Source of the DNA: Iodidimonas nitroreducens
GTDB taxonomy: Bacteria > Pseudomonadota > Alphaproteobacteria > Sphingomonadales > Rhodothalassiaceae
Length of the DNA stretch: 35,223 nt
NCBI GenBank assembly: GCA_000710935.1
Contig: BAYV01000018.1
Location: 1-35,223, forward strand
Reading direction: 5' to 3'
Part shown: in pieces, positions 1,090 through 14,566 of the stretch
How the letters are laid out: the number at the start of each line of letters is the position of its first letter
How positions within the stretch are numbered: the first letter of the stretch is position 1
Made by a program: the position numbers and the translations under genes
Notes under the pieces: generated by a model
Database searches by the model: none
The model's input: the letters and a program-made list of their open reading frames with translations, nothing else
What the model was told of the DNA's origin: nothing

Positions 1090-2847
1090 ATGAATAATCC
1101 TAACGGAACCGAAATGAATTCTTCGGCGCCACTCTCACCGGCTGGCGTACAGGATGGCGATATGCTGCATCAGCTTTGGCGTCAGTTCCTGCCCATGTCA
1201 AACAGACCGGTCCTGCTCGCCTCTCTGGCCATCAATCTTCTGGCGCTTGCCCTGCCTTTGATGATCTTGCAGGTTTATAATCGGATTCTGCCTTATGAGG
1301 GATTATCCACCCTTGCCATGCTCAGCCTTGGGGTTTTTGTAGCGCTGATCATCGATCTTGTTTTGAAAATCGCCCGGGCGCATCTATCGGGCTGGGCCGG
1401 GGCGCAATATGAACATAAGGCCGGCTGCATTGCCATGCACCGATTGGCCAGCGGCGATCTGGCGCATATCGAAGCCACACCATCAGGCACCCATCTCGAC
1501 CGTTTATCGAGCATCAGCCAGATTCGCGAATTTTATGCAAGCCAGGCCAGCCTCGTCCTCGTCGATCTGCCTTTCATCGTTATTTTTCTGGGAATTCTGG
1601 CCCTGATTGCCGGGTGGCTGGTTCTCATTCCCCTGTTCATGCTGGTTGTTGCGGCCCTGATTGCCTGGCGATTGGGCAAGCGCCTGCAAAATAAGATTGA
1701 ACAGCGCCATCATTGGGATAGCCGACGCTACAGCTTTCTGATCGAGGTTTTGAGCGGCATTCACACGGTCAAGGCGATGGCCATGGAAAAAATGATGCTG
1801 CGGCGCTATGAGCGGCTTTTGGAAGCCAATGCCTCCCTCAGTGCCGAAGTCTCTGATCTGTCCGGCCATGCCCAAACCGTGGGGACCCTGACCAGCCAGC
1901 TCACCTTGGCCGCAATCGTCGCCTTTGGCAGCCTTTTGGTGATAGATGGCCAGATGACCATGGGGGCGCTGGCCGCCAGCACATTGCTTGCCGGGCGCAC
2001 GGTGCAGCCTGCCTTGCGGGCCTTGGGCTTATGGTCGCAATTTCAATCGGTCAGTCTGGCAGAAGAGAATCTGCGCGATATCGATGCCATCCCCGCGGAA
2101 TCGCGCGGTCAGTTCGTGATGGATCGCTTTCAATCTCTTGAATTGCGCGGGGCGGCCTTTCGCTATGATGCCCCCGACATTGAAACCGATGATGTTTTAA
2201 AAGGCATCGATCTGCATCTGGAACGCGGTGAAGTCATCGGCATCACCGGGCAGAATGGCTGCGGCAAATCCACCCTTTTGCATCTGGCGGCCGGGCAGAT
2301 CAGCCCCAGCCGGGGCCGTGTTTTGCTCAATGGTCAGCCCCCCGAAGATTATGAAGCCGCCAGCATCTTTCGCCAGCTTGCTTATGTGCCCCAAAGGCCG
2401 ACATTATTCCACGGCACGGTGCTCGATAATCTGACGATGTTTCAATCCGATGAGCCCAAAATCATGCAAAGGGCTTTGGAACTGGCGCAAAAGCTGCTTT
2501 TAGATGAGGTTTTTGCCCGCCTGCCCGATGGCTATGATACCGAAATCGGCGATAGCACCACGGCCATCCTGCCCGCAGGCGTTGCCCAAAGAATTACCAT
2601 CGTGCGCGCCATTCTCCATCGCCCCGGGCTGATTTTGCTCGATGAAGCCAATACCAGCCTTGATGGCGAAAGCGATCGCGCTTTATGCGATCTCTTGCGC
2701 AGTTTGAAAGGCGATTGCGCGATGATTCTGGTGAGCCACCGGCCCTCCCTGCTGGCCTTGGCCGATCGGCGCTATAGCCTTGAAGGTGGTCGGCTTTTGC
2801 CCATGAAAACAGCGCCTTTTGTGCCTTCAGAGGAGCCCCAAAGATGA
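1090..2847 (+). CDS. Type I secretion ABC transporter (permease-ATPase), first of tandem pair
   Basis: Predicted inner-membrane ABC exporter half-molecule of 585 aa. About 40 N-terminal residues lead into the transmembrane domain (hydrophobic spans from about 38 to 300). The nucleotide-binding domain follows: Walker A GQNGCGKST from residue 387, Q-loop AYVPQRP, Walker B LILLDEA with D518 and E519, and H-loop LVSHRP. The ABC signature is degenerate: LPAGV (494-498) instead of LSGGQ. It has no C39 peptidase domain. The stop overlaps the next start by four bases (ATGA), so translation is probably coupled. With the second exporter and HlyD it forms a type I secretion operon, most likely for the divergent VCBS protein. 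Whether it works as homodimer or heterodimer cannot be read from sequence. Confidence 0.9.
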   Translation: MNNPNGTEMNSSAPLSPAGVQDGDMLHQLWRQFLPMSNRPVLLASLAINLLALALPLMILQVYNRILPYEGLSTLAMLSLGVFVALIIDLVLKIARAHLSGWAGAQYEHKAGCIAMHRLASGDLAHIEATPSGTHLDRLSSISQIREFYASQASLVLVDLPFIVIFLGILALIAGWLVLIPLFMLVVAALIAWRLGKRLQNKIEQRHHWDSRRYSFLIEVLSGIHTVKAMAMEKMMLRRYERLLEANASLSAEVSDLSGHAQTVGTLTSQLTLAAIVAFGSLLVIDGQMTMGALAASTLLAGRTVQPALRALGLWSQFQSVSLAEENLRDIDAIPAESRGQFVMDRFQSLELRGAAFRYDAPDIETDDVLKGIDLHLERGEVIGITGQNGCGKSTLLHLAAGQISPSRGRVLLNGQPPEDYEAASIFRQLAYVPQRPTLFHGTVLDNLTMFQSDEPKIMQRALELAQKLLLDEVFARLPDGYDTEIGDSTTAILPAGVAQRITIVRAILHRPGLILLDEANTSLDGESDRALCDLLRSLKGDCAMILVSHRPSLLALADRRYSLEGGRLLPMKTAPFVPSEEPQR

Positions 2848-5045
2848 ATGCTCCGGCATCTCCGCGCGGCTCTGATCGTGGGTCCATTCGCCCTAATGCG
2901 GCCCTGAGCCATCAGGATGCAGATGCTTTGGCTTCGGCCATCCGCCGTGGCTCTTTGGGTGATTTCACCGCCCGATCAGGCTTTGCCGCCTGTTTGATGG
3001 CCCTGCTCGATGCCCGGGGATGGCGCGGAACCCAGCGAAGCCTGAGCGAAGCCCTGCCGCATTTTGCATCCGACCTCAATCTGGCCAGCCTGCGCAATGT
3101 TCTGGCGGATCTGAATTTTAAAACTATCGAGCGTCCGATCAAAAAGGGCGAAATCCTCGACCCCCGGTTGATGCCGTGCCTTTATCTCGATGATCAAGGC
3201 AATCCCAGTGCTTTGAGCGTCAATGAACAGGGCATTTTCGAGATTTTTGCCGGGGATGACAATGTCTGGCGAATTCTTGATAAGCCCCTGGAAGCGGGCC
3301 TTGTCATTCTGATCACTGAAATTCCCACCGATCAGGATGCCCCGCGCCCCGAACACAACTGGACTCGCGCCATCCTGCGCCGGATGCGGCCCCGGATCAT
3401 GCGGCTTTTGGGGATGACCTTCCTGCTCAACTTGCTGGCTCTGGTGGGGCCCTTGTTCATCATGGTGGTTTATGATCAGGTGGTGGCGTCGGGCTCTCCG
3501 CGCCTGCTCGTGCCTTTGGTCATCGGGGTGGGGTTGGCCGCCCTCATCGAATTGATCACCCGCATTTTTCGCGGAAAATCCATTGCCTTCATGTCCGGGC
3601 GGCTGGAATTCATTATTTCACGCAGTGTCTTCCGGCAAATTCTGAGCCTGCCCATCACCCGCACGGAATCCGCACCCTTGAGCGGCCAGATTTCGCGCAT
3701 TCGTGAATTCGACAGCATGCGCGATATTTTCATGGGCACGCTGGTGACCGTGCTGCTCGAACTTCCCTTCATCGGAGTGTTTTTGCTGGTGATCGCCTTA
3801 TTGGCAGGCTGGCTGGTGCTCATCCCCTTTGTAATGATCGGAGTGTTCATTCTGATGGGGGCCATCGCCTTGCCATCCCTGAAGCGATCCGTGGCCCGCA
3901 CATCCAACCAAAGATCCCGGCAATATCGCTTTCTGGTCGAATTCGTGACCAATCTGCGAACCATTCGCGAAGCCGGTGCGGGCGAACGCTGGTCTGATCG
4001 CTATCGTGAGATGTCTGCGACCACCAGCCTCGAGCAATTTCGCAATGGCCAGATTGCCTTCACTTTGCAATCCCTGTCGCAATTGATCATGATGATCGCT
4101 GGCGGCGGCACCATCGTCTATGGCGTTATTCTGGTGATCGGGGGCACGCTCACAGCCGGCGGGCTGATCGCGGTGATGGCTTTGGTCTGGCGGATTCTCG
4201 CCCCCATCCAGAATCTGTTTCTCACCCTCACCCGCGCCGAACAAATCTCGATGACGGTGGGGCATCTCGATCAGCTGATGCAATTACGCGGCGAACAAAC
4301 CCGTCATCATTCCGGCGGGATCATCCGTCAATGGGCCGGGGCCATTGATTTCACCCGGGTCAGCTTTCGCTATCGCCCCAATACCGATCCCGCCCTTTTG
4401 GGCATCAGTTTCAAGGCCGATCCCGGCGAGATGATCGCTATCATGGGATCGAATGGATCAGGTAAATCAACCATTTTGCGCCTGATCGCCGGGCTTTATG
4501 AGGCACAGGCCGGTCAGGTCAGCATCGATGGTCTTGATGTGCGCCAGATCGATCCTCAGGAATTGCGCCAGCAGATCGCCTATGTTCCGCAAAATTGCCA
4601 TGTCTTTCACGGCACGTTGGCCCAAAATCTGCGCTTTTCCAACCCCGTGGTGAGCGAACGCGAGATTGAAGACGCCTGCCGCAAGGCCGGTTTGTGGGAC
4701 GAAATCACCCGCCTGCCCGATGGGCTCGAAACCCGTTTTGGGGATCAAACCGTGTGGCAATTGAATGCGGGCTTTCGCCAGCGCATTTCCCTGGCCCGCG
4801 CCTATCTGCGCGATGCCCAACTGATCCTGCTCGATGAACCGGCACAAGCCCTAGATGATGCGGGGGATCAGGCTTTGGTGCAGATGATCCAGAATTTGCG
4901 GGGTGAGAAAACCATCATCATGGTTTCCCACCGCCCCAGCCATATTCGTCTGGCTGATCGTGTTTTGCATCTTGAAAAGGGCATCCTGATCGCTGAGGGC
5001 GCGCCCGAGCAGAGCCTGTCCCGATCCGAAGGCAAGTTTTTATGA
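2844..5045 (+). CDS. Type I secretion ABC transporter with degenerate C39-like N-terminal domain, second of tandem pair
   Basis: A 733-residue exporter. Residues about 20-160 resemble the C39-like domain of RTX exporters (HlyB/LapB class) but lack a recognisable catalytic Cys and His. The stretch ARSGFAACLMALL has Ser-Gly-Phe where peptidases have a Cys-Gly. It should therefore bind substrate rather than cleave it. The transmembrane domain spans about 185-480. The nucleotide-binding domain has Walker A GSNGSGKST from residue 535, AYVPQN Q-loop, Walker B LILLDEP (D664, E665) and MVSHRP H-loop. The signature is LNAGF (about 640) rather than LSGGQ, so both exporters of the operon deviate at this motif. 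It overlaps its upstream and downstream neighbours by ATGA, so the three genes are probably co-translated. Confidence 0.9.
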   Translation: MNAPASPRGSDRGSIRPNAALSHQDADALASAIRRGSLGDFTARSGFAACLMALLDARGWRGTQRSLSEALPHFASDLNLASLRNVLADLNFKTIERPIKKGEILDPRLMPCLYLDDQGNPSALSVNEQGIFEIFAGDDNVWRILDKPLEAGLVILITEIPTDQDAPRPEHNWTRAILRRMRPRIMRLLGMTFLLNLLALVGPLFIMVVYDQVVASGSPRLLVPLVIGVGLAALIELITRIFRGKSIAFMSGRLEFIISRSVFRQILSLPITRTESAPLSGQISRIREFDSMRDIFMGTLVTVLLELPFIGVFLLVIALLAGWLVLIPFVMIGVFILMGAIALPSLKRSVARTSNQRSRQYRFLVEFVTNLRTIREAGAGERWSDRYREMSATTSLEQFRNGQIAFTLQSLSQLIMMIAGGGTIVYGVILVIGGTLTAGGLIAVMALVWRILAPIQNLFLTLTRAEQISMTVGHLDQLMQLRGEQTRHHSGGIIRQWAGAIDFTRVSFRYRPNTDPALLGISFKADPGEMIAIMGSNGSGKSTILRLIAGLYEAQAGQVSIDGLDVRQIDPQELRQQIAYVPQNCHVFHGTLAQNLRFSNPVVSEREIEDACRKAGLWDEITRLPDGLETRFGDQTVWQLNAGFRQRISLARAYLRDAQLILLDEPAQALDDAGDQALVQMIQNLRGEKTIIMVSHRPSHIRLADRVLHLEKGILIAEGAPEQSLSRSEGKFL

Positions 5046-6436
5046 GCCAAAACCCCGATTTTGAACACTCCATCAAAAGATCGCCAGCCATGTTGAACAA
5101 AAAAAGCTCCCGGTCCCTGATGCGTATCAATGCTTATGATCGCGAAGTGCTGAGCCGATCCGTTTATCTTGAAGAAACCGGCCCTTCGATGGGCATGGCG
5201 GCGCTGATTTTTGTGATCGCCGCGCTGATTGCCCTGTTCATCATCTGGTCTGGCCTTACCCGGCTTGATGAAACCGTGGCCGCAAGGGGAACGGTTTCAC
5301 CAATCAGCTTTGTGCAGCCGGTACAGCATCTGGAAGGTGGGATCGTCGCCTCGGTGGAGGTTGAAGAGGGCCAAATCGTCAAGGCCGGTGATCCTTTATT
5401 GACCATGGATAAAACCATTTCGCGTTCCGATTATCTGGCCCTCAAGGTGCGCGAGGCCTCGCTCGCTTTGCAGATCGAACGCTTGCGCGCCTTTGCCCTG
5501 AATGATGAGCCTGATTTTTCCGCCTATGTGGAAAATTATCCCGAATTGGTGAGGGATCAACAGCGCATTTACGAAACACAGATCGATGCCCGCAATGCCC
5601 AGATTGCGATCAGCAACGCCCAGATCCAATCCCGCCAGCAAGAAGCGCTGAGCCTGAGCGAGCATCATGATATGCTTAAAAAGCAGGTTCTTTTGCTGCA
5701 GGAAGAGCTTGAGATGCGCCAAACCCTGCTGGACAAGGGCCTGACCAACAAGATCGTTTTCCTCGATACCCAACGGCGGCTCAATCAGACTGAGGGGGAA
5801 ATCGCCCGCACCCGCGCCGATATGGCCCGCGCCGAAGCCGAAATTGCGCAGGCGCGCGGCGGATTGCTGGAAATGGAAGAACGCCTGCGCGGCGATGCTT
5901 TGGAGGAATTGGGGCGCTTTTCCAATGAGCAGGCTGAAATCAAGGAGCAACTGACCCGGCTTTCGGATCGGGTACAAAGAACGGTGGTGCGCGCCCCCGT
6001 GGCTGGAACGGTGACCGGATTGGCCGTTACCGGTCCCGGTGCCGTGGTGCAGCCCGGGGCAAAGCTGGCCGACATCGTGCCCAATGATCGGCAGATTCTG
6101 GCGGAAACCCGGATCAGCCCGCGCGATATCGGGCATATCAAACCCGGCCAGCCGGTGACAGTGAAAATCGATAGCTATGATTATGCACGCTTTGGTGGTG
6201 TTCCCGGAAAAGTGAAAAGCATTTCTGCCACCAGCTTCATCGATGAGGAGGGTGTCAGTTATTTCCGCTCGATGATCAGCATCGATCAAACCTTTGTTGG
6301 CGAAAATCCGGCAAATAATACGATCACTCCGGGCATGACCCTGGTCGCCGATATCAAAACCGGCGAAAAAAGCCTGCTTGCCTATTTATGGCGGCCCGTT
6401 CAGCAATCAATGTCGGGGGCCTTTTCCGAACGCTGA
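5042..6436 (+). CDS. HlyD-family type I secretion membrane fusion protein
   Basis: A periplasmic adaptor of 464 aa that bridges the ABC exporter and an outer-membrane TolC-like channel. It has a short cytosolic N-terminus, one transmembrane span at about residues 50-72, and a first lipoyl half around GGIVASVEVEEGQIVKAGDP. A long charged coiled-coil hairpin follows (about 130-300, rich in Glu, Gln, Arg and Leu). The second lipoyl half contains VRAPVAGTVTGL, and then a beta-barrel. The length is normal for the family. It is the last gene of the operon, overlapping the second ABC gene by ATGA. No TolC homologue follows, so the outer-membrane partner is outside the window. Confidence 0.93.
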   Translation: MSQNPDFEHSIKRSPAMLNKKSSRSLMRINAYDREVLSRSVYLEETGPSMGMAALIFVIAALIALFIIWSGLTRLDETVAARGTVSPISFVQPVQHLEGGIVASVEVEEGQIVKAGDPLLTMDKTISRSDYLALKVREASLALQIERLRAFALNDEPDFSAYVENYPELVRDQQRIYETQIDARNAQIAISNAQIQSRQQEALSLSEHHDMLKKQVLLLQEELEMRQTLLDKGLTNKIVFLDTQRRLNQTEGEIARTRADMARAEAEIAQARGGLLEMEERLRGDALEELGRFSNEQAEIKEQLTRLSDRVQRTVVRAPVAGTVTGLAVTGPGAVVQPGAKLADIVPNDRQILAETRISPRDIGHIKPGQPVTVKIDSYDYARFGGVPGKVKSISATSFIDEEGVSYFRSMISIDQTFVGENPANNTITPGMTLVADIKTGEKSLLAYLWRPVQQSMSGAFSER

Positions 6437-6804: not shown

Positions 6805-7305
6805 ATGAAAACAGCCATCTTTCCCGTCACAAAAGCCGATATTCTTAATCCATCACTCAAGAATCTGTTCATGCTGTGGGATGAAAAAAAAGCGGGAAAC
6901 CGCTATCCCAACAGAAAAGATTTTTCCTTTGCCGATTTTCGGCCATGGCTGGGATTTTTGATCATCTGTTCGGTCAATCATGAAACGCAGGAAATCTATC
7001 CCGATCTGGTGGGCACGCAGGTCGTCGCTTGGGATGGCGAGGATATGACCCATAAGATCATGCACCCCACAAGGCCGTCAAACTTCCCCACCAAAATTTT
7101 GCAGCCCTTCTATGCTACGCTGGAAAACGGCCAGCCGATGATGGCGGTGCATACAAAACCCGATATCGGTGGCAAGCTGGAACGATTGATCCTCCCCTGC
7201 GCGGCGGATGACAATCTGATCGACAAGATGATTTCCGCCATTCTTCCCAATCCGCCCATGGCTGATTTTCTCAAAACCAATAGCCTGCTGCATCTGATGT
7301 CATAA
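6805..7305 (+). CDS. PAS_5-like domain protein
   Basis: A 166-residue soluble protein that resembles the alphaproteobacterial PAS_5 family. It has the family's opening LFMLWDEKKAGNRYPNRKDF, followed by FADFRPWLGFLII, a mid-region YPDLVGTQVVAWDGEDMTHK, and a C-terminal half with PFYATLENGQPMM and ERLILPC. The family is a stand-alone PAS fold presumed to sense a small ligand. No output domain (kinase, GGDEF, DNA-binding) is present. It lies alone between an AT-rich region and the vWA gene. A link to the secretion operon is possible only by proximity. The family call is fairly confident; ligand and role are unknown. Confidence 0.7.
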   Translation: MKTAIFPVTKADILNPSLKNLFMLWDEKKAGNRYPNRKDFSFADFRPWLGFLIICSVNHETQEIYPDLVGTQVVAWDGEDMTHKIMHPTRPSNFPTKILQPFYATLENGQPMMAVHTKPDIGGKLERLILPCAADDNLIDKMISAILPNPPMADFLKTNSLLHLMS

Positions 7306-7352: not shown

Positions 7353-8174
7353 ATGAAGCACAGGCAACAGCGGTCGGGGGTCATGATCAAGAGCAGGAAA
7401 ATGCCATTCTCCCAACCTGCAGGCCAGCCTTCGTGCCAATCGAGGAAGCCCGCAAACCCAGCCTCCGGGATTGATCGTTTTCTCAACGATCTGGCCACGA
7501 TCGATCACCAAACCCCATCCCGCTATTCCGGCCAGCCATCCGGGCGCCTGATCTTTGCCCTTGATGCTACTTTGAGCCGCCAACCCACATGGGATATAGC
7601 CACCCATATTCAAAGCCATATGTTTGAAGCCACCGAAGGGCGCGCCCCTTTATCGGTGCAGCTGGTCTATTTCCGGGGCTATCGGGAATGCAAGGCCAGC
7701 CCTTGGGTGCAGGACAGCCGGGCCCTCGCAAAACTGATGCGCGGATTGACATGCCAGGGCGGGATGACCCAGATCGGTCGGGTGCTGGGCCATTGCCTGC
7801 GTGAGCAACGCAAAAGCCTGCAAGATGCCCCCGCGGCGGCACCGATCAATGCCATCGTTCTGGTAGGCGATGCCTGCGAGGAAAAGGCTGATGATCTGTG
7901 CCATCTGGCGGGCCAATTGGGGCTTTTATCGGTGCCTATTTTTGCGTTTCACGAAGGCACGGATGCGGTCGCAAGAACCGCCTTCATGGAATTGGCGCGG
8001 CTTTCGGGGGGGGCCTATGCCCCGTTCGATCATCAAAGCGCCGATCAACTGCGTGATCTTTTAAAAGCCGTTTCGGCCTATGCCTCGGGCGGGGCGGCGG
8101 CCCTCAGCACCTTGGAAGCACAGATGAAGCGCCCCCTTGGTCTCTTGCAGCAGATGAAAGGGCACCGCCCATGA
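7353..8174 (+). CDS. von Willebrand factor A (vWA) domain protein
   Basis: A 273-residue protein without a signal peptide or transmembrane span. After about 60 low-complexity residues a vWA fold follows, with a complete metal-ion-dependent adhesion site. The elements are D71-x-T-x-S75 in FALDATLSRQ, the Thr of CQGGMTQIG (139) and Asp of LVGDACEE (173). It should bind a protein partner through a divalent metal. The start is uncertain: ATG codons at 7353, 7383 and 7401 all lack a well-spaced Shine-Dalgarno site. It overlaps the following J-domain gene by ATGA (8171-8174), which suggests a functional pair. The specific role is unknown. Confidence 0.75.
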   Translation: MKHRQQRSGVMIKSRKMPFSQPAGQPSCQSRKPANPASGIDRFLNDLATIDHQTPSRYSGQPSGRLIFALDATLSRQPTWDIATHIQSHMFEATEGRAPLSVQLVYFRGYRECKASPWVQDSRALAKLMRGLTCQGGMTQIGRVLGHCLREQRKSLQDAPAAAPINAIVLVGDACEEKADDLCHLAGQLGLLSVPIFAFHEGTDAVARTAFMELARLSGGAYAPFDHQSADQLRDLLKAVSAYASGGAAALSTLEAQMKRPLGLLQQMKGHRP

Positions 8175-8929
8175 TCTGGTTGGGGGCCGGTGTCCTCGGC
8201 CTTGTGCTTTTGCTGTTTTCCCTCAATAGCCTTGCCAAGGCGCCGCCGGATCGGGTGGCCCGGGCCGCCCTTCTCACGCTTTTAACGGTGCTTGGCCTTT
8301 TTGGGGGGCTTTTACTGATCACTGGCAAATTTCTGGTGGCCCTGCCTGTTCTGGCCTCGGCGGCGGCGGGGCTTTTCAAGCTGGCGGCGCTTTTACGCCT
8401 GTTTGGGGCGCGCGCCTCATGGAACCGCCCGCGCGCGTCGCAAAACACGAACAAAAGCGCGGATGGCTCGATGGATGAAGAGGCATCAAGCCCTGGCTCC
8501 GATGTCACGAGCTTGTGGCTTTCCATGCATCTGGATCATGAAAGCGGCGAGATCGAGGGAACGGTGCTGGACGGGCCATATCAAGGGGTGAAGCTCAGTG
8601 CCCTTTCTTTTGATGATCTCATCCGCCTGTTGCACGATCTTTATGATCATGATCCGGAAGGCAGCCGCCTTTTAGAAGCCTATCTGGACCGCAATCATGG
8701 GCCTTCATGGCGCAGGGCTAAAGCCCATGAGGCTGGAAAGTCCGATGCCGCAGGTACGATAAGCCTTGATGAAGCCCGAACGATTTTGGGGGTACCAGCC
8801 GATGCCAGCCCCCAGGATATTCAAGCCGCCTATCACCGATTGATGAAAAAAGTGCATCCCGATCAGGGCGGCAGCGCCTATTTTGCGGCCAAACTGAATG
8901 AAGCCAAAGATCGCCTGCTGCGCGATTAA
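8171..8929 (+). CDS. Membrane-anchored J-domain (DnaJ-like) protein
   Basis: A 252-residue protein. Hydrophobic spans at about 1-20, 29-52 and 52-78 anchor it in the inner membrane. A charged linker follows, then a central cytoplasmic segment with SFDDLIRLLHDLYDHD. The C-terminal J domain (about 197-252) runs from SLDEARTILGVPADASPQDI and has the Hsp70-stimulating HPD motif at 229-231 (VHPDQGG). Having the J domain at the C-terminus behind membrane spans is a known alphaproteobacterial type, distinct from DnaJ itself because the Gly/Phe and zinc regions are absent. It would recruit DnaK to the membrane. Translational overlap with the upstream vWA gene suggests they act together. Confidence 0.8.
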   Translation: MIWLGAGVLGLVLLLFSLNSLAKAPPDRVARAALLTLLTVLGLFGGLLLITGKFLVALPVLASAAAGLFKLAALLRLFGARASWNRPRASQNTNKSADGSMDEEASSPGSDVTSLWLSMHLDHESGEIEGTVLDGPYQGVKLSALSFDDLIRLLHDLYDHDPEGSRLLEAYLDRNHGPSWRRAKAHEAGKSDAAGTISLDEARTILGVPADASPQDIQAAYHRLMKKVHPDQGGSAYFAAKLNEAKDRLLRD

Positions 8930-8958
8930 ATGTGAAACAAAATCCAAGGATAGCCCCG

Positions 8959-10356
8959 ATGACCCGATCCCATCCCCTCGACCCCACGATATTGCGGGAA
9001 TATGATATTCGCGGCGTGGTGGATGAAAGCTTTGGCGAAGCCGATGTGCGGGCGCTGGGCCGGGCTTTTGGCAGCCTTGTCCGCCGTGGGGGCGGGCGCA
9101 GTCTGGCAGTGGGCTATGATGGACGCGAAAGCTCGGTCCGCCTTGCGGATGCCCTGATCGAAGGGCTGATATCCACCGGCATCACCGTAAAGATGATCGG
9201 TTTGGGGCCCACGCCGATGATGTATTATGCCGTGCATGAGCTGGCCACCGATGGCGGGCTGATGATCACCGGTTCCCATAATCCGCCCGAATATAATGGC
9301 CTCAAAATGATGCTGGGCACGAAGCCCTTTTATGGCGCCCAGATTCAAAATCTGGGAGAGATGACTGCAAAGGGCGATTTTGAAAGCGGCGAAGGGGTGA
9401 TTGAGCCGGTGGATTTATTTGATCGCTATATCGAGCGATTGGCCCGCGATTTCGATCCCCTGCCCGAGGACGCTGTGCCCATTGATGTGGGTTGGGACCC
9501 GGGCAATGGGGCGGCGGGCGATGCGGTGGCGGCTTTGGTCAAAAAACTGCCGGGCCGGCATCTGGTGATCAATGAAACCATCGATGGCCGCTTTCCCAAT
9601 CATCACCCCGATCCCACGGTGGAAAAAAATCTCGAACAATTAAAAGCGCTGGTCAAAGCTGAAAATCTGTCTCTGGGCCTTGCCTTTGATGGCGATGGGG
9701 ATCGCATCGGGGCGGTGGATCGCCATGGCCGGGTGGTGTGGGGGGATCAGCTTTTGCTGGTTCTGGCGCGCCATCTGCTGGCCACCCAACCCGGTGTTCC
9801 GATCATTGCCGATGTGAAGGCGAGCCAGATGCTGTTTGATGGCATCAGGGATGCGGGCGGGCTGCCGGAAATGTGGAAAACCGGCCATTCGCTGATCAAG
9901 GCCCGAATGAGCGAGGTGGGGGCCCCGCTGGCGGGCGAGATGAGCGGCCATATCTTTTACAAGGATCGCTTTTATGGCCATGATGATGGCCTTTATGCGG
10001 CCATCCGGCTGCTCAATGCCATTGCCGCCCAAGGGGGCGATCTGGCCGCCCTGCGCGATGCCATGCCGCAATTGGTGAATACCCCCGAACTGCGCTTTCC
10101 CTGCGCTGAAGAGCGCAAAAATCCGGTGATCGAAGGGGTTCGCGCCCGGCTTCAGGAGCAAGGTGCCAAGATCATCGATGTGGATGGGGTCAGGGTCATC
10201 ACCGATGATGGCTGGTGGCTTTTGCGGGCATCCAATACCCAGGATGTGCTGGTGGCCCGGGTTGAATCCCATGATGAAGCCGGCCTTTTAAGGCTGAAGG
10301 GTCTTTTGCGCGATCAACTGGTCTTGAGCGGCATCACCCCACCCGAAGATCTATGA
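8959..10356 (+). CDS. Phosphomannomutase/phosphoglucomutase
   Basis: A cytosolic alpha-D-phosphohexomutase (PMM/PGM, AlgC/ManB type) that interconverts hexose 6-phosphate and 1-phosphate for nucleotide-sugar synthesis. It begins HPLDPTILREYDIRG. The catalytic phosphoserine is in TGSHNPPEYNG (Ser about 106), the metal loop is DGDGDRIG (244-251), the sugar-specificity loop is GEMSGHIFY and the phosphate loop is RASNTQDVLVAR. The ATG at 8959 is chosen because AAGGA lies upstream and the protein then starts as in homologues. A GTG at 8932 would add nine residues. Its product feeds the galU/ugd steps further downstream. Confidence 0.92.
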   Translation: MTRSHPLDPTILREYDIRGVVDESFGEADVRALGRAFGSLVRRGGGRSLAVGYDGRESSVRLADALIEGLISTGITVKMIGLGPTPMMYYAVHELATDGGLMITGSHNPPEYNGLKMMLGTKPFYGAQIQNLGEMTAKGDFESGEGVIEPVDLFDRYIERLARDFDPLPEDAVPIDVGWDPGNGAAGDAVAALVKKLPGRHLVINETIDGRFPNHHPDPTVEKNLEQLKALVKAENLSLGLAFDGDGDRIGAVDRHGRVVWGDQLLLVLARHLLATQPGVPIIADVKASQMLFDGIRDAGGLPEMWKTGHSLIKARMSEVGAPLAGEMSGHIFYKDRFYGHDDGLYAAIRLLNAIAAQGGDLAALRDAMPQLVNTPELRFPCAEERKNPVIEGVRARLQEQGAKIIDVDGVRVITDDGWWLLRASNTQDVLVARVESHDEAGLLRLKGLLRDQLVLSGITPPEDL

Positions 10357-10566: not shown

Positions 10567-11493
10567 ATGACGCAAAACAGCACAGAGCCCGGCAAAAAAA
10601 CGGCCAACGACCCCTCGGCCACGGCGCATGTGGCGGAAAAATCGGCTGCTCCGGCGGGGGGCACCCCACCGGCTCAGGCGGAAACGGCCCCAAAAGCTTC
10701 GGCAGCAAAGCCTGTGGAGGTCGCGGCAGCTGCGGTGAAGGCAGCAGAGCCCGCCAAAACCACAGCCCCCAAAGCTGATGAGCCCAAAGCCGACGCCCCA
10801 AAAGCGGAAACGGTTAAGGCTGATCCAGTGAAAACGGTAACGGCCAAAACGGCTCCCAAAAAAGCGCCAAAAGCTGCCCCAAAGCCAACTATGAAATCAG
10901 CCGTGAAAGCATCGTCCTCAACGTCGGTGCGCGAATCCGAACGGGTGTTTGCTGAAGCCACCCTTCATGCCGCAAAAGATAAAGATGGCAGCAAAACAGC
11001 GTCCAAATCTGCCGCCAAAGCTTCGGCAAAGCTAAAGACACCGGCCAAAAGCACAAAACCCGCGACATCTGCCAAAAAATCCGTATCGGTGGCCCATGAT
11101 GAGCTTGATCTATCCGCCGATCTTGGCCAGCGCGTTGTCAGCGATCTGTTTGGCAGCATGGGGGCGATGATAAATATGCAGCAAAAAACATTGAGTAATC
11201 TCCTCGATGCCGCCCTGTCTGCGACCGAACGTGCTGAAAATATGACCGATCATTATTCCGGTCTGGCCCAAAAAATCGGCCAAAGGCAAAATTCCTTCAT
11301 TGATCGTTTACGCGATGCAAAAGATCCGCTCAGCGCCAGCGAGGCCCAGATCGGGTATTTCAAGGATTGCTGCGATGATCTGATGAAGGAATGTTCCGTC
11401 GCCACGGAATTATGGATTCGCGCCAGCCAGCAAAGCATCAATCCCATCAGCACACAGTTTTCCGTTCTGATCGATCAGATGAAGGGGCGTTAA
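10567..11493 (+). CDS. Phasin-like protein with Ala/Lys/Pro-rich N-terminal tail
   Basis: A 308-residue protein in two parts. Residues about 1-175 are low-complexity and basic, rich in Ala, Lys and Pro with KAxAP/AKPA-type repeats, like histone-H1-like tails. Residues about 178-305 are a helical phasin-like domain, for instance GSMGAMINMQQKTLSNLLDA and AQKIGQRQNSFIDRLRD. Phasins coat polyhydroxyalkanoate granules; a basic tail may bind DNA as in PhaF, where the tail is C-terminal instead of N-terminal. GGAGC precedes the ATG by about 10 bases. Its place directly upstream of clpS-clpA is usual for alphaproteobacteria. No phaC or phaZ gene is in the window, so granule association is inferred from family only. 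Confidence 0.65.
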   Translation: MTQNSTEPGKKTANDPSATAHVAEKSAAPAGGTPPAQAETAPKASAAKPVEVAAAAVKAAEPAKTTAPKADEPKADAPKAETVKADPVKTVTAKTAPKKAPKAAPKPTMKSAVKASSSTSVRESERVFAEATLHAAKDKDGSKTASKSAAKASAKLKTPAKSTKPATSAKKSVSVAHDELDLSADLGQRVVSDLFGSMGAMINMQQKTLSNLLDAALSATERAENMTDHYSGLAQKIGQRQNSFIDRLRDAKDPLSASEAQIGYFKDCCDDLMKECSVATELWIRASQQSINPISTQFSVLIDQMKGR

Positions 11494-11810
11494 GCCGCCG
11501 CATCCGCTTCTTTTTTTAATGGCTTCGGCGGCGCCAGGCACCGAAGACTAGAGCTGCGCAGAAACAAGTGTTCTGCGCAGCGTTATGGCTGTGTTAAGAT
11601 TACATCTGCATGATCATGATTGATGCCTGAAGGATTGGGGCCATGTCATTCGAGCTTTTTTAAAAACTGTGTTGTGAAGGGGGTGTTATTCCCTTGGCCT
11701 TGCCTTATCTATGGACAGTTGGGGCTCGCGCCCGAGATGTATTTAAAAAAGCGGGGCCATTTCAGACAGGCAAGGCAGCGGCTGGTAAAATGAGCGTAAA
11801 GTACATATCT
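11494..11810. other. Intergenic region between phasin-like gene and clpS
   Basis: About 315 bases, depending on the clpS start. The first 90 bases hold three inverted repeats: GCCGCCG/CGGCGGC (11494-11500 with 11526-11532, loop containing a T7 run), CTTCGG/CCGAAG (11523-11528 with 11541-11546), and a long perfect hairpin at 11553-11581. These probably form the end of the phasin transcript. The remainder (about 11590-11810) should contain the clpS promoter, but I see no clear consensus. An open frame runs from 11694 into clpS, but its N-terminal extension does not look like ClpS. Confidence 0.45.
11553..11581 (+). terminator. Perfect 11-bp stem-loop downstream of the phasin-like gene
   Basis: GCTGCGCAGAA (11553-11563) pairs perfectly with TTCTGCGCAGC (11571-11581) around a 7-base loop. 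It lies about 60 bases after the phasin stop. No U-tract follows, so it is either a factor-assisted terminator, an mRNA-stabilising hairpin or a binding site for a dimeric regulator. Confidence 0.4.
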
Positions 11811-12137
11811 ATGTCTGAGAATGAACAGGATGGCACGGGTGCACCCCATACGGGTTTATTGACCAAAACCGAGCCCAAAACCAAGAAACCATCCATGTAC
11901 AAGGTTCTGATGCTGAATGACGACTATACGCCGATGGATTTTGTCATTCATGTCTTGAAGCGCTTTTTCAGGATGTCATCAGAGCAGGCGACACAGGTGA
12001 TGCTGCATGTTCATCAAAAAGGCGTGGGCGTTTGCGGCGTGTTTACCTATGAAATTGCCGAAACCAAAGCAACGCAGGTTGTGGATTATGCGCAAAAACA
12101 TCACCATCCCCTGCAATGCACCCTTGAAAAAGAGTGA
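11811..12137 (+). CDS. clpS: ATP-dependent Clp protease adaptor ClpS
   Basis: A small cytosolic adaptor that delivers N-degron substrates to ClpAP. The core is typical: [20 protein letters not shown], then [20 protein letters not shown], then [20 protein letters not shown]. Asn-Asp and Asp-Tyr of NDDYTPMDF and the Met/His residues line the N-end-residue pocket in known ClpS proteins. The start is set at ATG 11811 (MSENEQDG), giving 108 residues, normal for the family. ATG 11790 would add seven residues, and neither has a strong Shine-Dalgarno site. The longer frame from 11694 adds a non-conserved segment and is not accepted. clpA follows 83 bases later in the same direction. Confidence 0.93.
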
Positions 12138-12220
12138 GATGTGATGACAGGATCAGGAGGACGAGCGCGAACCGGTTGAATGACCGTCATCACGTTTTTT
12201 GAGATAAAGGATACCGAACC

Positions 12221-14566
12221 GTGCCGAGTTTTTCACCACATCTGGAACAAACGCTCCATCGCGCCCTGGCGGAAGCCAATAAGCGCCGGCACGAATATGC
12301 AACCCTTGAGCATTTATTGTTCGGGTTGCTGGATGATGAAGATTCTGCCGCCGTTCTCAATGCCTGCAATGTCGATATTCATATTTTGCGCGCCAATCTT
12401 GCCGGTTATCTGGATAAAGAACTTGATAGCCTGAAAATTGATGATGATGGCATCGAAGCCACCCCCACAGCCGGATTTCAAAGGGTTGTGCAGCGGGCCA
12501 TCCTGCATGTGCAAAGCTCGGGGCGCGAGGAAATGACCGGTGCCAACGTGCTGGTTGCCCTGTTTTCCGAACGCGAAAGCCATGCGGTTTATTTTCTGCA
12601 ACAACAGGATATGACCCGGCTGGATGCCGTGAGCTATATCAGCCATGGCATTGCCAAATCACCCCAGCAGGGCGACAGGCGGGCGGCATCTGGCGGCGCA
12701 ACGGATGAGGAAAGCGGCCCCGGCGCCCCGGAATCCGCGCATCGGAATGAGCCGAAAAAAGGCGACAGCGCCCTTGAAAATTATTGTGTCGATCTCAATC
12801 AGCGGGCCCGCATTGGCAAAATCGATCCCCTGATCGGACGACAAAGCGAAATTGATCGCACCATTCAGATTCTGTGCCGCAGATCCAAGAACAATCCCCT
12901 GTTCGTGGGTGATCCCGGCGTTGGGAAAACCGCCATTGCCGAAGGGTTGGCGCGCAAGATCGTTGAAGGTGATGTGCCCGAGGTGCTGCTCGATGCCACG
13001 ATTTTCGCCCTTGATATGGGATCGCTGCTGGCTGGCACCCGCTATCGCGGTGATTTTGAAGAACGCCTGAAAGCGGTGGTAAAAGAACTGGAAGATCATG
13101 ACGGCGCGATTTTGTTCATCGATGAAATTCATACGGTGATCGGCGCGGGTGCCACATCGGGCGGGGCCATGGATGCCTCAAATCTTTTGAAACCCGCTTT
13201 GGCATCCGGGGCGATCCGCTGCATCGGGTCCACCACCTATAAGGAATTTCGCGGTCATTTTGAAAAAGATCGCGCCCTTTTGCGGCGCTTCCAGAAAATC
13301 GACGTGGCCGAGCCCACTTTGCCCGATACCATCAAGATCATGCAGGGGTTAAAGCCCTATTTTGAAAAGCATCATCGGGTGCGCTATACCGCCGATGCCA
13401 TCAAGGCCGCAGTAGAATTATCCGCCCGCTATATCACCGATCGCAAATTGCCCGATAAAGCGATTGATGTGATCGATGAAACGGGTGCGGCCCAGATGCT
13501 GCTGCCCTTATCCCGGCGCAAGAAAACCGTTGGGGTGAAGGATGTGGAGGCCGTGGTTGCCAAGATCGCGCGGATTCCGCCGAAATCGGTCTCGAAAGAT
13601 GATGCCAAGGTGATGGCCAATATCGAACGCGATTTAAAGCGTGTGGTTTTTGGTCAGGATCGTGCGATTTCCGCCCTGGCCGCCAGCATCAAGCTTTCGC
13701 GCGCGGGCCTGCGCGAGCCGAACAAGCCCATTGGTTCTTATCTTTTTTCCGGCCCAACGGGGGTGGGCAAAACCGAAGTGGCCCGCCAGCTTGCCCTGCT
13801 TTTGGGGGTTGAACTCACCCGATTTGATATGTCGGAATATATGGAGCGGCACACGGTTTCCCGGCTGATCGGGGCGCCTCCGGGCTATGTCGGCTTTGAT
13901 CAGGGCGGCCTGCTGACCGATGCGGTGGATCAGCATCCCCATTCCGTTTTGTTGCTTGATGAGATCGAAAAGGCGCATCCCGATCTGTTTAACCTGCTTT
14001 TGCAGGTGATGGATGCGGGCACCCTTACCGATCATAATGGCAAAAAGATCGATTTCCGCAATGTGATCCTGATCATGACCACCAATGCCGGGGCGTCTGA
14101 AATGGCCAAAACCGCTATTGGCTTTGGCCGCGATCAGCGCGAGGGCGAAGACGAAGAAGCCATCAAGAAGCTGTTTACTCCGGAATTTCGCAATCGCCTT
14201 GATGCCGTGGTGCCCTTTGATTATCTGCCGACCGAAGTGGTGTCGCGGGTGGTTGAGAAATTCATCCTTGAACTGGAAATTCAGCTTGCCGAGCGCGATG
14301 TGATGATCTCGGTCACGGAAGATGCCAAAAAATGGATGGCGGAAAAGGGTTATGATAAATCCTTTGGTGCCCGCCCCCTTGGCCGCGTGATCCAGGAAAA
14401 TATCAAAAAGCCGCTGGCCGATGAATTGCTGTTTGGTCGCCTGCAGAAAGGCGGCGAGGTGGTAATCCGGCTGATTGATGGTAAGATCGATTTCGAAATC
14501 ACCCCCAATGCCGCCCCTCCGGGCAATCGGAAAAAGCGGAAGCCAAGGCCCGCACCTGTTGAATAG
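12221..14566 (+). CDS. clpA: ATP-dependent Clp protease ATP-binding subunit ClpA
   Basis: A hexameric AAA+ unfoldase of 781 aa that feeds substrates to ClpP. The N-domain (about 1-145) starts FSPHLEQTLHRALAEANKRR and carries the ClpS-binding double repeat. The first AAA+ module has Walker A GDPGVGKT (about 230-237) and Walker B ILFIDEIHTV. The second has Walker A GPTGVGKT (about 511-518) and Walker B VLLLDEIEKAHPD. It starts at GTG 12221, preceded by AAAGGA nine bases upstream, and the protein then begins MPSF as in homologues. Co-transcription with clpS is likely because there is no terminator between them. clpP is not in the window. Confidence 0.97.
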   Translation: MPSFSPHLEQTLHRALAEANKRRHEYATLEHLLFGLLDDEDSAAVLNACNVDIHILRANLAGYLDKELDSLKIDDDGIEATPTAGFQRVVQRAILHVQSSGREEMTGANVLVALFSERESHAVYFLQQQDMTRLDAVSYISHGIAKSPQQGDRRAASGGATDEESGPGAPESAHRNEPKKGDSALENYCVDLNQRARIGKIDPLIGRQSEIDRTIQILCRRSKNNPLFVGDPGVGKTAIAEGLARKIVEGDVPEVLLDATIFALDMGSLLAGTRYRGDFEERLKAVVKELEDHDGAILFIDEIHTVIGAGATSGGAMDASNLLKPALASGAIRCIGSTTYKEFRGHFEKDRALLRRFQKIDVAEPTLPDTIKIMQGLKPYFEKHHRVRYTADAIKAAVELSARYITDRKLPDKAIDVIDETGAAQMLLPLSRRKKTVGVKDVEAVVAKIARIPPKSVSKDDAKVMANIERDLKRVVFGQDRAISALAASIKLSRAGLREPNKPIGSYLFSGPTGVGKTEVARQLALLLGVELTRFDMSEYMERHTVSRLIGAPPGYVGFDQGGLLTDAVDQHPHSVLLLDEIEKAHPDLFNLLLQVMDAGTLTDHNGKKIDFRNVILIMTTNAGASEMAKTAIGFGRDQREGEDEEAIKKLFTPEFRNRLDAVVPFDYLPTEVVSRVVEKFILELEIQLAERDVMISVTEDAKKWMAEKGYDKSFGARPLGRVIQENIKKPLADELLFGRLQKGGEVVIRLIDGKIDFEITPNAAPPGNRKKRKPRPAPVE

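Follow-up and report, generated by a model that had tools for sequence, protein, structure and literature searches.

J domains on the DnaK side of a membrane stimulate DnaK locally, and Pam18 (Tim14), which is anchored by one membrane helix, does likewise for mitochondrial Hsp70. In Escherichia coli, the membrane-anchored J proteins of the DjlB/DjlC-HscC system are thought to place Hsp70 at the inner membrane, according to the available part of the account (PMC8215388). For the NorQ/NorD couple, the available text of PMC9976466 reports that the MIDAS of the vWA protein is required to obtain an active client but is dispensable for NorQ binding, and proposes that this MIDAS grips the membrane client. 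Another vWA protein, RL3273 of Rhizobium leguminosarum, is described as required for root attachment in the part of PMC11406972 at hand; considered as a member of the vWA family treated here, it was not identified with it and was set aside. A search of the open-licence literature returned no paper on a vWA/J pair or on a MIDAS adaptor acting with Hsp70. Here, we describe such a pair from Iodidimonas nitroreducens, within a stretch of 35,223 nucleotides, the whole of which is called the window below.

Results

A vWA gene and a Pam18-type J gene

The features of the pair, all on the forward strand, are as follows.

7353..8174, +: vWA gene, 273 aa (ORF list, predicted structure, hydropathy)
7563..7577, +: MIDAS loop 1, D71-A-T73-L-S75 (D71, T73 and S75 each 170/170)
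7767..7769, +: MIDAS T139 (170/170)
7869..7871, +: MIDAS D173, followed by E176 and E177 (D173 and E176 170/170, E177 169/170)
8171..8174, +: ATGA overlap of the vWA stop (TGA, 8172-8174) and the J start (ATG, 8171-8173), from the sequence
8171..8929, +: J-protein gene, 252 aa, Pam18/Tim14 type with an extra domain
8171..8404, +: N-terminal membrane region of J (model helices 2-23, 26-50 and 54-77; hydropathy 1-24 and 29-78)
8483..8548, +: N-terminal hairpin of the extra domain, J 105-126, with the motif LDHxSG at 121-126
8489..8743, +: extra domain, J 107-191, predicted beta-beta-beta-alpha-alpha-alpha, missing in short relatives
8756..8926, +: J domain, residues 196-252 (library, single-sequence, profile and fold matches)
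8855-8863, +: HPD, J 229-231

Residues of the vWA protein are numbered from the ATG at 7353; its true start codon is uncertain, and residues 1-60 are variable and mostly of low confidence (pLDDT ~50). The vWA alpha/beta fold is evident in the AlphaFold model at residues ~61-257 (pLDDT 80). With this model, Foldseek returned 324 matches at E<=0.001, the top ones including TFIIH subunits and the integrin I and VWF A domains, and VIA gave a highest Z of 19.1, over 175 residues. In sequence libraries the protein was barely detected (best match Pfam VWA_2, E 0.23; a second search gave no vWA match), and E<=0.01 was reached by 24/68 relatives. Hydropathy identified no membrane-like stretch, and the secondary structure of the predicted model no long insertion.

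A complete MIDAS had been reported in a preliminary description of this DNA, and its five residues (D71, T73, S75, T139 and D173) are indeed in place. The signature is DxTxS in place of DxSxS, plus T and D. The same residues occur in 68/68 vWA alignment rows, and all five are invariant in the 170/170 vWA proteins paired with a long J (one that has the extra domain), as are R76, W80, Q140, E176 and G202. On sequence grounds, the metal site is very likely used.

The model of the J protein consists of a membrane part, a low-confidence stretch, the extra domain (107-191) and, at the C-terminus, the J domain, and predicts the arrangement of N-terminal anchor and C-terminal J domain of the Pam18/Tim14 type. 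The membrane J-domain protein with intact HPD that had been described was confirmed by the membrane stretches found by both hydropathy and model, and by the HPD, which is unchanged in 62/62 J alignment rows. The J domain is of the Tim14/Pam18 type, nearer to Tim14 than to other J domains: the best PDB match by single sequence, profile and fold is yeast Tim14 (2guz_A), the profile search giving it E 2.3e-17 versus 1.4e-8 for the next match, DnaJ, and VIA giving it Z 10.4 (rmsd 4.0 over 66), the next match having Z 8.3 (rmsd 1.6 over 55). In the window's own genome, the sole match of PF03656 (Pam16-like) was this J gene, and there was none in 14 control genomes (0/14). The Pam18/Tim14 likeness, the extra domain tied to the vWA protein and the wide spread of the pair had all been missed in the preliminary description.

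Linkage and spread of the pair

The vWA gene runs over the start of the J gene by four bases, as had been noted. We compared this junction in 80 named loci (L039-L118), the best 80 of at least 579 confirmed relative stretches. In 71 of them both frames are whole, and tight same-strand spacing is conserved, with fewer than 30 bases in 56/71 pairs; the 4-base overlap itself is not, occurring in 12/71 only, with a 1-base overlap in a further 3/71. Six of the other nine are truncated at locus ends (L053, L057, L085, L096, L112 and L117), L063 and L092 have a broken J frame downstream of vWA, and L115 has a vWA gene with no J gene within ~4.9 kb downstream.

In a survey of 190 genomes of the class, we identified vWA in 68, as 69 genes, and J relatives at E<=1e-8 in 123. 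The vWA gene lies immediately upstream of J on the same strand in 66/69 cases, the gap ranging from a 1-base overlap to 241 bases by profile bounds. On plasmids, all 12/12 vWA records have an adjoining same-strand J match, and one further record has J alone. The preliminary description had allowed that the two genes might be unlinked in most relatives, which these figures contradict. Within the window's order, vWA was found in 12/99 genomes; in 11 a long J adjoins it, and the twelfth (G005) ends at a contig end. Read from the J side, 11/11 matches spanning the extra domain in this order adjoin vWA. No natural in-frame vWA-J fusion was present among the ORFs of the loci examined. The two proteins make up a widespread unit whose J member is of the Pam18 type, and in our view the two genes very probably function as one.

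Neighbouring genes and transferred copies

One further gene follows the pair directly.

8932..10356, +: pgmG phosphoglucomutase/phosphomannomutase ORF, an old neighbour

This gene is not thought to be part of the vWA/J module. Just upstream of vWA, at 6805-7305, lies a gene for a small PAS protein, weakly MopJ-like (E 0.0003, below the cut-off), and the ABC transporter and HlyD-like genes at 2844-6436 resemble a type I secretion unit on visual inspection of the ORF list. Downstream of pgmG, 10567-14566 holds a phasin-like gene, clpS and clpA. Among the best 80 named loci, a 144-aa gene (representative DUF1489) was found ~1.8 kb upstream of vWA in 35/80, and an opposite-strand gene downstream in 41/80 (representative a D-alanyl-D-alanine carboxypeptidase with a SPOR domain).

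The pairing could in principle be an inherited arrangement of genes (MipZ-like ATPase, vWA, J, pgmG/galU and, at a greater distance, clpS-clpA), with no direct tie between vWA and J. Consistent with this, in the 19 loci of the window's order with a short J form (L020-L038; 143-176 aa, membrane part and J domain alone), a MipZ-like ATPase gene adjoins J in 19/19, with pgmG in 15/19, and clpA lies within ~4 kb downstream of the pair in 29/59 named loci with enough sequence, from the best 80, on the other strand once among those 29. The window's own genome has its best homologue of the MipZ-like gene on a different contig, C90. The transferred copies argue against this explanation. Two plasmid copies, annotated as "VWA domain-containing protein" and "DnaJ domain-containing protein", keep the pair in differing surroundings, with galU retained downstream only in that of the Azospirillum brasilense pair (WP_137142927.1 and WP_175426645.1). 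The pair is also present in some gammaproteobacteria, and neither MipZ-like genes nor pgmG, galU, clpS or clpA were found near it in L060, L071, L076 and L080. In trees of 89 rows, made up of the gammaproteobacterial ones and one in two of the others, 7/8 gammaproteobacterial rows form one group for both proteins; in the vWA tree L113, from a metagenome bin, falls outside this group. Long J proteins occur, moreover, in two genomes where vWA is unlinked (G163 and G179), and the hairpin decay described below likewise speaks against mere gene order, which we regard as improbable. The vWA-J pair moves as a unit, and clpS-clpA and the MipZ-like genes are old neighbours that are not common to the transferred copies examined.

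These surroundings bear equally on the suggestion that the vWA protein serves an AAA+ ATPase of the ClpA or MoxR type, the J protein being a second, parallel arm. Pairing of vWA proteins with MoxR AAA+ ATPases is documented in the available text of PMC9976466, the preliminary description had pointed to AAA+ partners, and clpS-clpA is downstream in the window, with clpA near the 29/59 named loci from the best 80 given above. This hint received no direct support: the vWA gene of the window has the PAS protein, J and pgmG genes as neighbours and no MoxR AAA+ gene next to it, the annotation of the two plasmids examined shows no AAA+ gene next to the pair, and clpA was not found in the four gammaproteobacterial loci. 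In the secondary structure of the predicted vWA model, in addition, no long insertion that could form a "finger" is seen. We regard an AAA+ arm as very unlikely.

The extra domain and its N-terminal hairpin

The extra domain comprises ~85 residues between the membrane part and the J domain, and is modelled with high confidence from residue 111 (pLDDT ~95). No Pfam family covers it, and the Foldseek and VIA matches of the J protein are mostly to the membrane part and J domain.

We typed 110 J copies of the class, down to E 5.9e-14, with weaker matches left out, a contig-end fragment of G105 omitted and two pieces of G000 joined. All 66 vWA-adjacent J proteins have 71-123 residues beyond the model, which derives mostly from short forms. 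The 30 end-to-end-matched J proteins without adjacent vWA comprise 26 with -12 to 24 extra residues and four with 76-96, two of the latter (G163 and G179) from genomes with an unlinked vWA and two (G167 and G285) from genomes with none. Outside the scored 96, 14/110 copies were not matched end to end; four of these are long without vWA, having 72-82 extra residues (G143, G267, G266 and G127), and a longer read revealed a fifth (G185). The reverse exception is G197, with a short J and a diverged, unlinked vWA that keeps the MIDAS residues.

The association of extra domain and vWA is one-sided. In a sample of 299 genomes of the phylum, vWA was found in 23, of which 20 belong to the class, including the window's own genome, and 3 to one genus outside it, and 23/23 carry a long J. 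Conversely, 16/39 genomes with a near-full-length long J (>=200/235 positions) have no detectable vWA (7 of family f155, 8 of f77 and 1 of f50), indicating that the extra domain has a role without vWA. The class survey, which holds few genomes per family, understates this one-sidedness. In the genus outside the class (G345, G408 and G441), the vWA/long-J pair is accompanied by a second J gene elsewhere, which matches the J-domain end of the model only.

We compared 20 long J proteins that lack vWA (6 families) with 96 that have it (66 families); genomes of both kinds occur in f77 and f155. G420, with an incomplete extra domain, is omitted from the hairpin comparison, and rows without a group code from the family counts. 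The J domain is retained without vWA, with an identity to the vWA-positive consensus of 0.71-0.88 versus a mean of 0.86. The hairpin (105-126), in contrast, has decayed in most families that lack vWA: its identity to this consensus is 0.83 over the 66 vWA-positive families, versus 0.30 in f77, 0.08 in f53, 0.42 in f50, 0.33 in f95 and 0.25 in f37; the conservation of the remaining protein would predict 0.65-0.78 in these families (z -3.3 to -7.0). In f77, f53 and f50 the extra domain is otherwise normal; in f95 and f37 the decay extends over the whole of it. Against an observed hairpin identity of 0.37, the six most diverged vWA-positive families have 0.65, and 0/20,000 random sets of six vWA-positive families were as low (lowest 0.67); these statistics are descriptive, since the limits of the hairpin were chosen after its decay had been seen. 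A scan along the J protein placed the largest drops at 98-113 and ~112-132, with another at 1-15.

At single positions, H123 is present in 62/66 families with vWA versus 2/6 without (Fisher p 0.0009), and S110 in 65/66 versus 2/6, while L142 and D161 of the extra domain do not differ between the two sets. H123 is missing in 9/171 vWA-positive rows, four of which belong to the window's order (G003, G004, G006 and G008). Within f77, it is kept in the two genomes with vWA and lost in the eight without.

The sixth family, f155, retains its hairpin (0.86). A stretch resembling the vWA C-terminus lies directly upstream of J in one f155 genome (profile E 0.0033) and in a second at E 0.2, the best of 6,977 control pieces having 0.31; with tblastn, a vWA-like stretch was found in 3/7 f155 genomes (E 0.001, 0.065 and 0.094). 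Likely vWA remnants were seen upstream of J in L298, L299 and L300, most clearly in L300, and G395, of the same genus as the genomes with remnants, still has the pair. To judge from these traces, the vWA gene was lost recently in these f155 genomes, probably in one event, the first genome being the only one that is clear by itself.

A test of extra domain against vWA on a tree of the J core was not significant, because only one independent contrast fell on well-supported branches; this tree covered 129 genomes (77 long with vWA, 45 short without, 6 long without and 1 short with), and its best topology had 16 extra-domain changes, 13 vWA changes and good support at 18/126 inner branches. In 170 pairs, the top inter-protein mutual information values were scattered, many of them in the membrane part, and were taken as noise.

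Discussion

The arrangement of the J protein is consistent with a module that recruits DnaK to the membrane, as had been proposed from the sequence of the window: the proposal fits the anatomy, and the client selection by vWA that accompanied it is possible. The N-terminal helices would anchor the J protein in the inner membrane and leave its C-terminal J domain in the cytosol, on the side of DnaK, as in Pam18/Tim14. The extra domain would then be a docking platform for the cytosolic vWA protein, chiefly through the beta-hairpin around LDHxSG. The MIDAS face of vWA may grip an acidic residue of this platform, for which D122 and the E or D at 124 in the hairpin are candidate ligands, or may face and hold a client instead. 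By either route, vWA would determine the site or the target at which the membrane-bound J domain activates DnaK. By analogy with NorQ/NorD, a vWA protein docked on the extra domain might present a client or gate the J domain.

We grade the parts of this proposal separately. Direct docking of vWA on the extra domain seems to us reasonably likely. The whole explanation, in which a dedicated vWA docks on the extra domain and steers DnaK to an inner-membrane client, is one that we favour by a small degree only. That the vWA protein is an adaptor for a client or target, rather than a mere regulator, is put forward tentatively.

A regulatory role would have vWA act on J itself, for instance as a cap or release factor, dependent on Mg2+, that turns the stimulation of DnaK on or off without delivering a client. 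Long J proteins lack vWA in 20 genomes (6 families), as expected if such a regulator were optional, and hairpin decay shows a dependence on vWA but not its sense. The analogy with NorQ/NorD weighs on the other side: there, in the available text of PMC9976466, the MIDAS serves the active client, so that a MIDAS would tend to face a client. We hold a pure regulator to be rather unlikely, and retain the docked vWA that steers DnaK as the preferred reading.

If this reading is true, Hsp70 has a MIDAS adaptor working alongside it at a bacterial membrane, bacterial relatives of Pam18 acquire a partner and a task that can be tested, and a J-protein domain outside the Tim14 match may have found its use. 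The decay of the hairpin in the absence of vWA points to the residues to be mutated first.

Comparison with known systems

The window J protein resembles Pam18/Tim14 in its membrane N-terminus and its C-terminal J domain with HPDxGGSxxxAxKxNEAKDxL. It differs from Pam18/Tim14 in having two to three predicted membrane helices, not one, in the extra domain between the membrane part and the J domain, and in its vWA partner gene, no Pam16-like partner (PF03656) having been found in its own genome. The short alphaproteobacterial Pam18-like J proteins share the membrane part, the J domain, the MipZ-like neighbour and mostly pgmG, but are without the extra domain and, in all scored genomes except G197, without vWA. 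DjlB and DjlC are likewise membrane J proteins, working with the specialised Hsp70 HscC; unlike the window J they are tail-anchored, and no vWA partner is mentioned for them in the available part of PMC8215388.

With the MoxR AAA+/vWA couples (NorQ/NorD, RavA/ViaA and CbbQ/CbbO), the window pair shares a MIDAS vWA protein coupled to a chaperone system. The partner here is a J protein, hence presumably Hsp70, and not an AAA+ ring, and the secondary structure of the window vWA model shows no long insertion of the "finger" kind. A wider picture, which we regard as speculative and somewhat doubtful, would be that of an alphaproteobacterial membrane Hsp70 machine, in which a J relative of Pam18 carries a purpose-built dock for a MIDAS vWA adaptor. 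Such a machine would be built on the principle of the MoxR/vWA couples, Hsp70 taking the place of the AAA+ ring, and would possibly give an image of what the pre-mitochondrial ancestor of Pam18 did.
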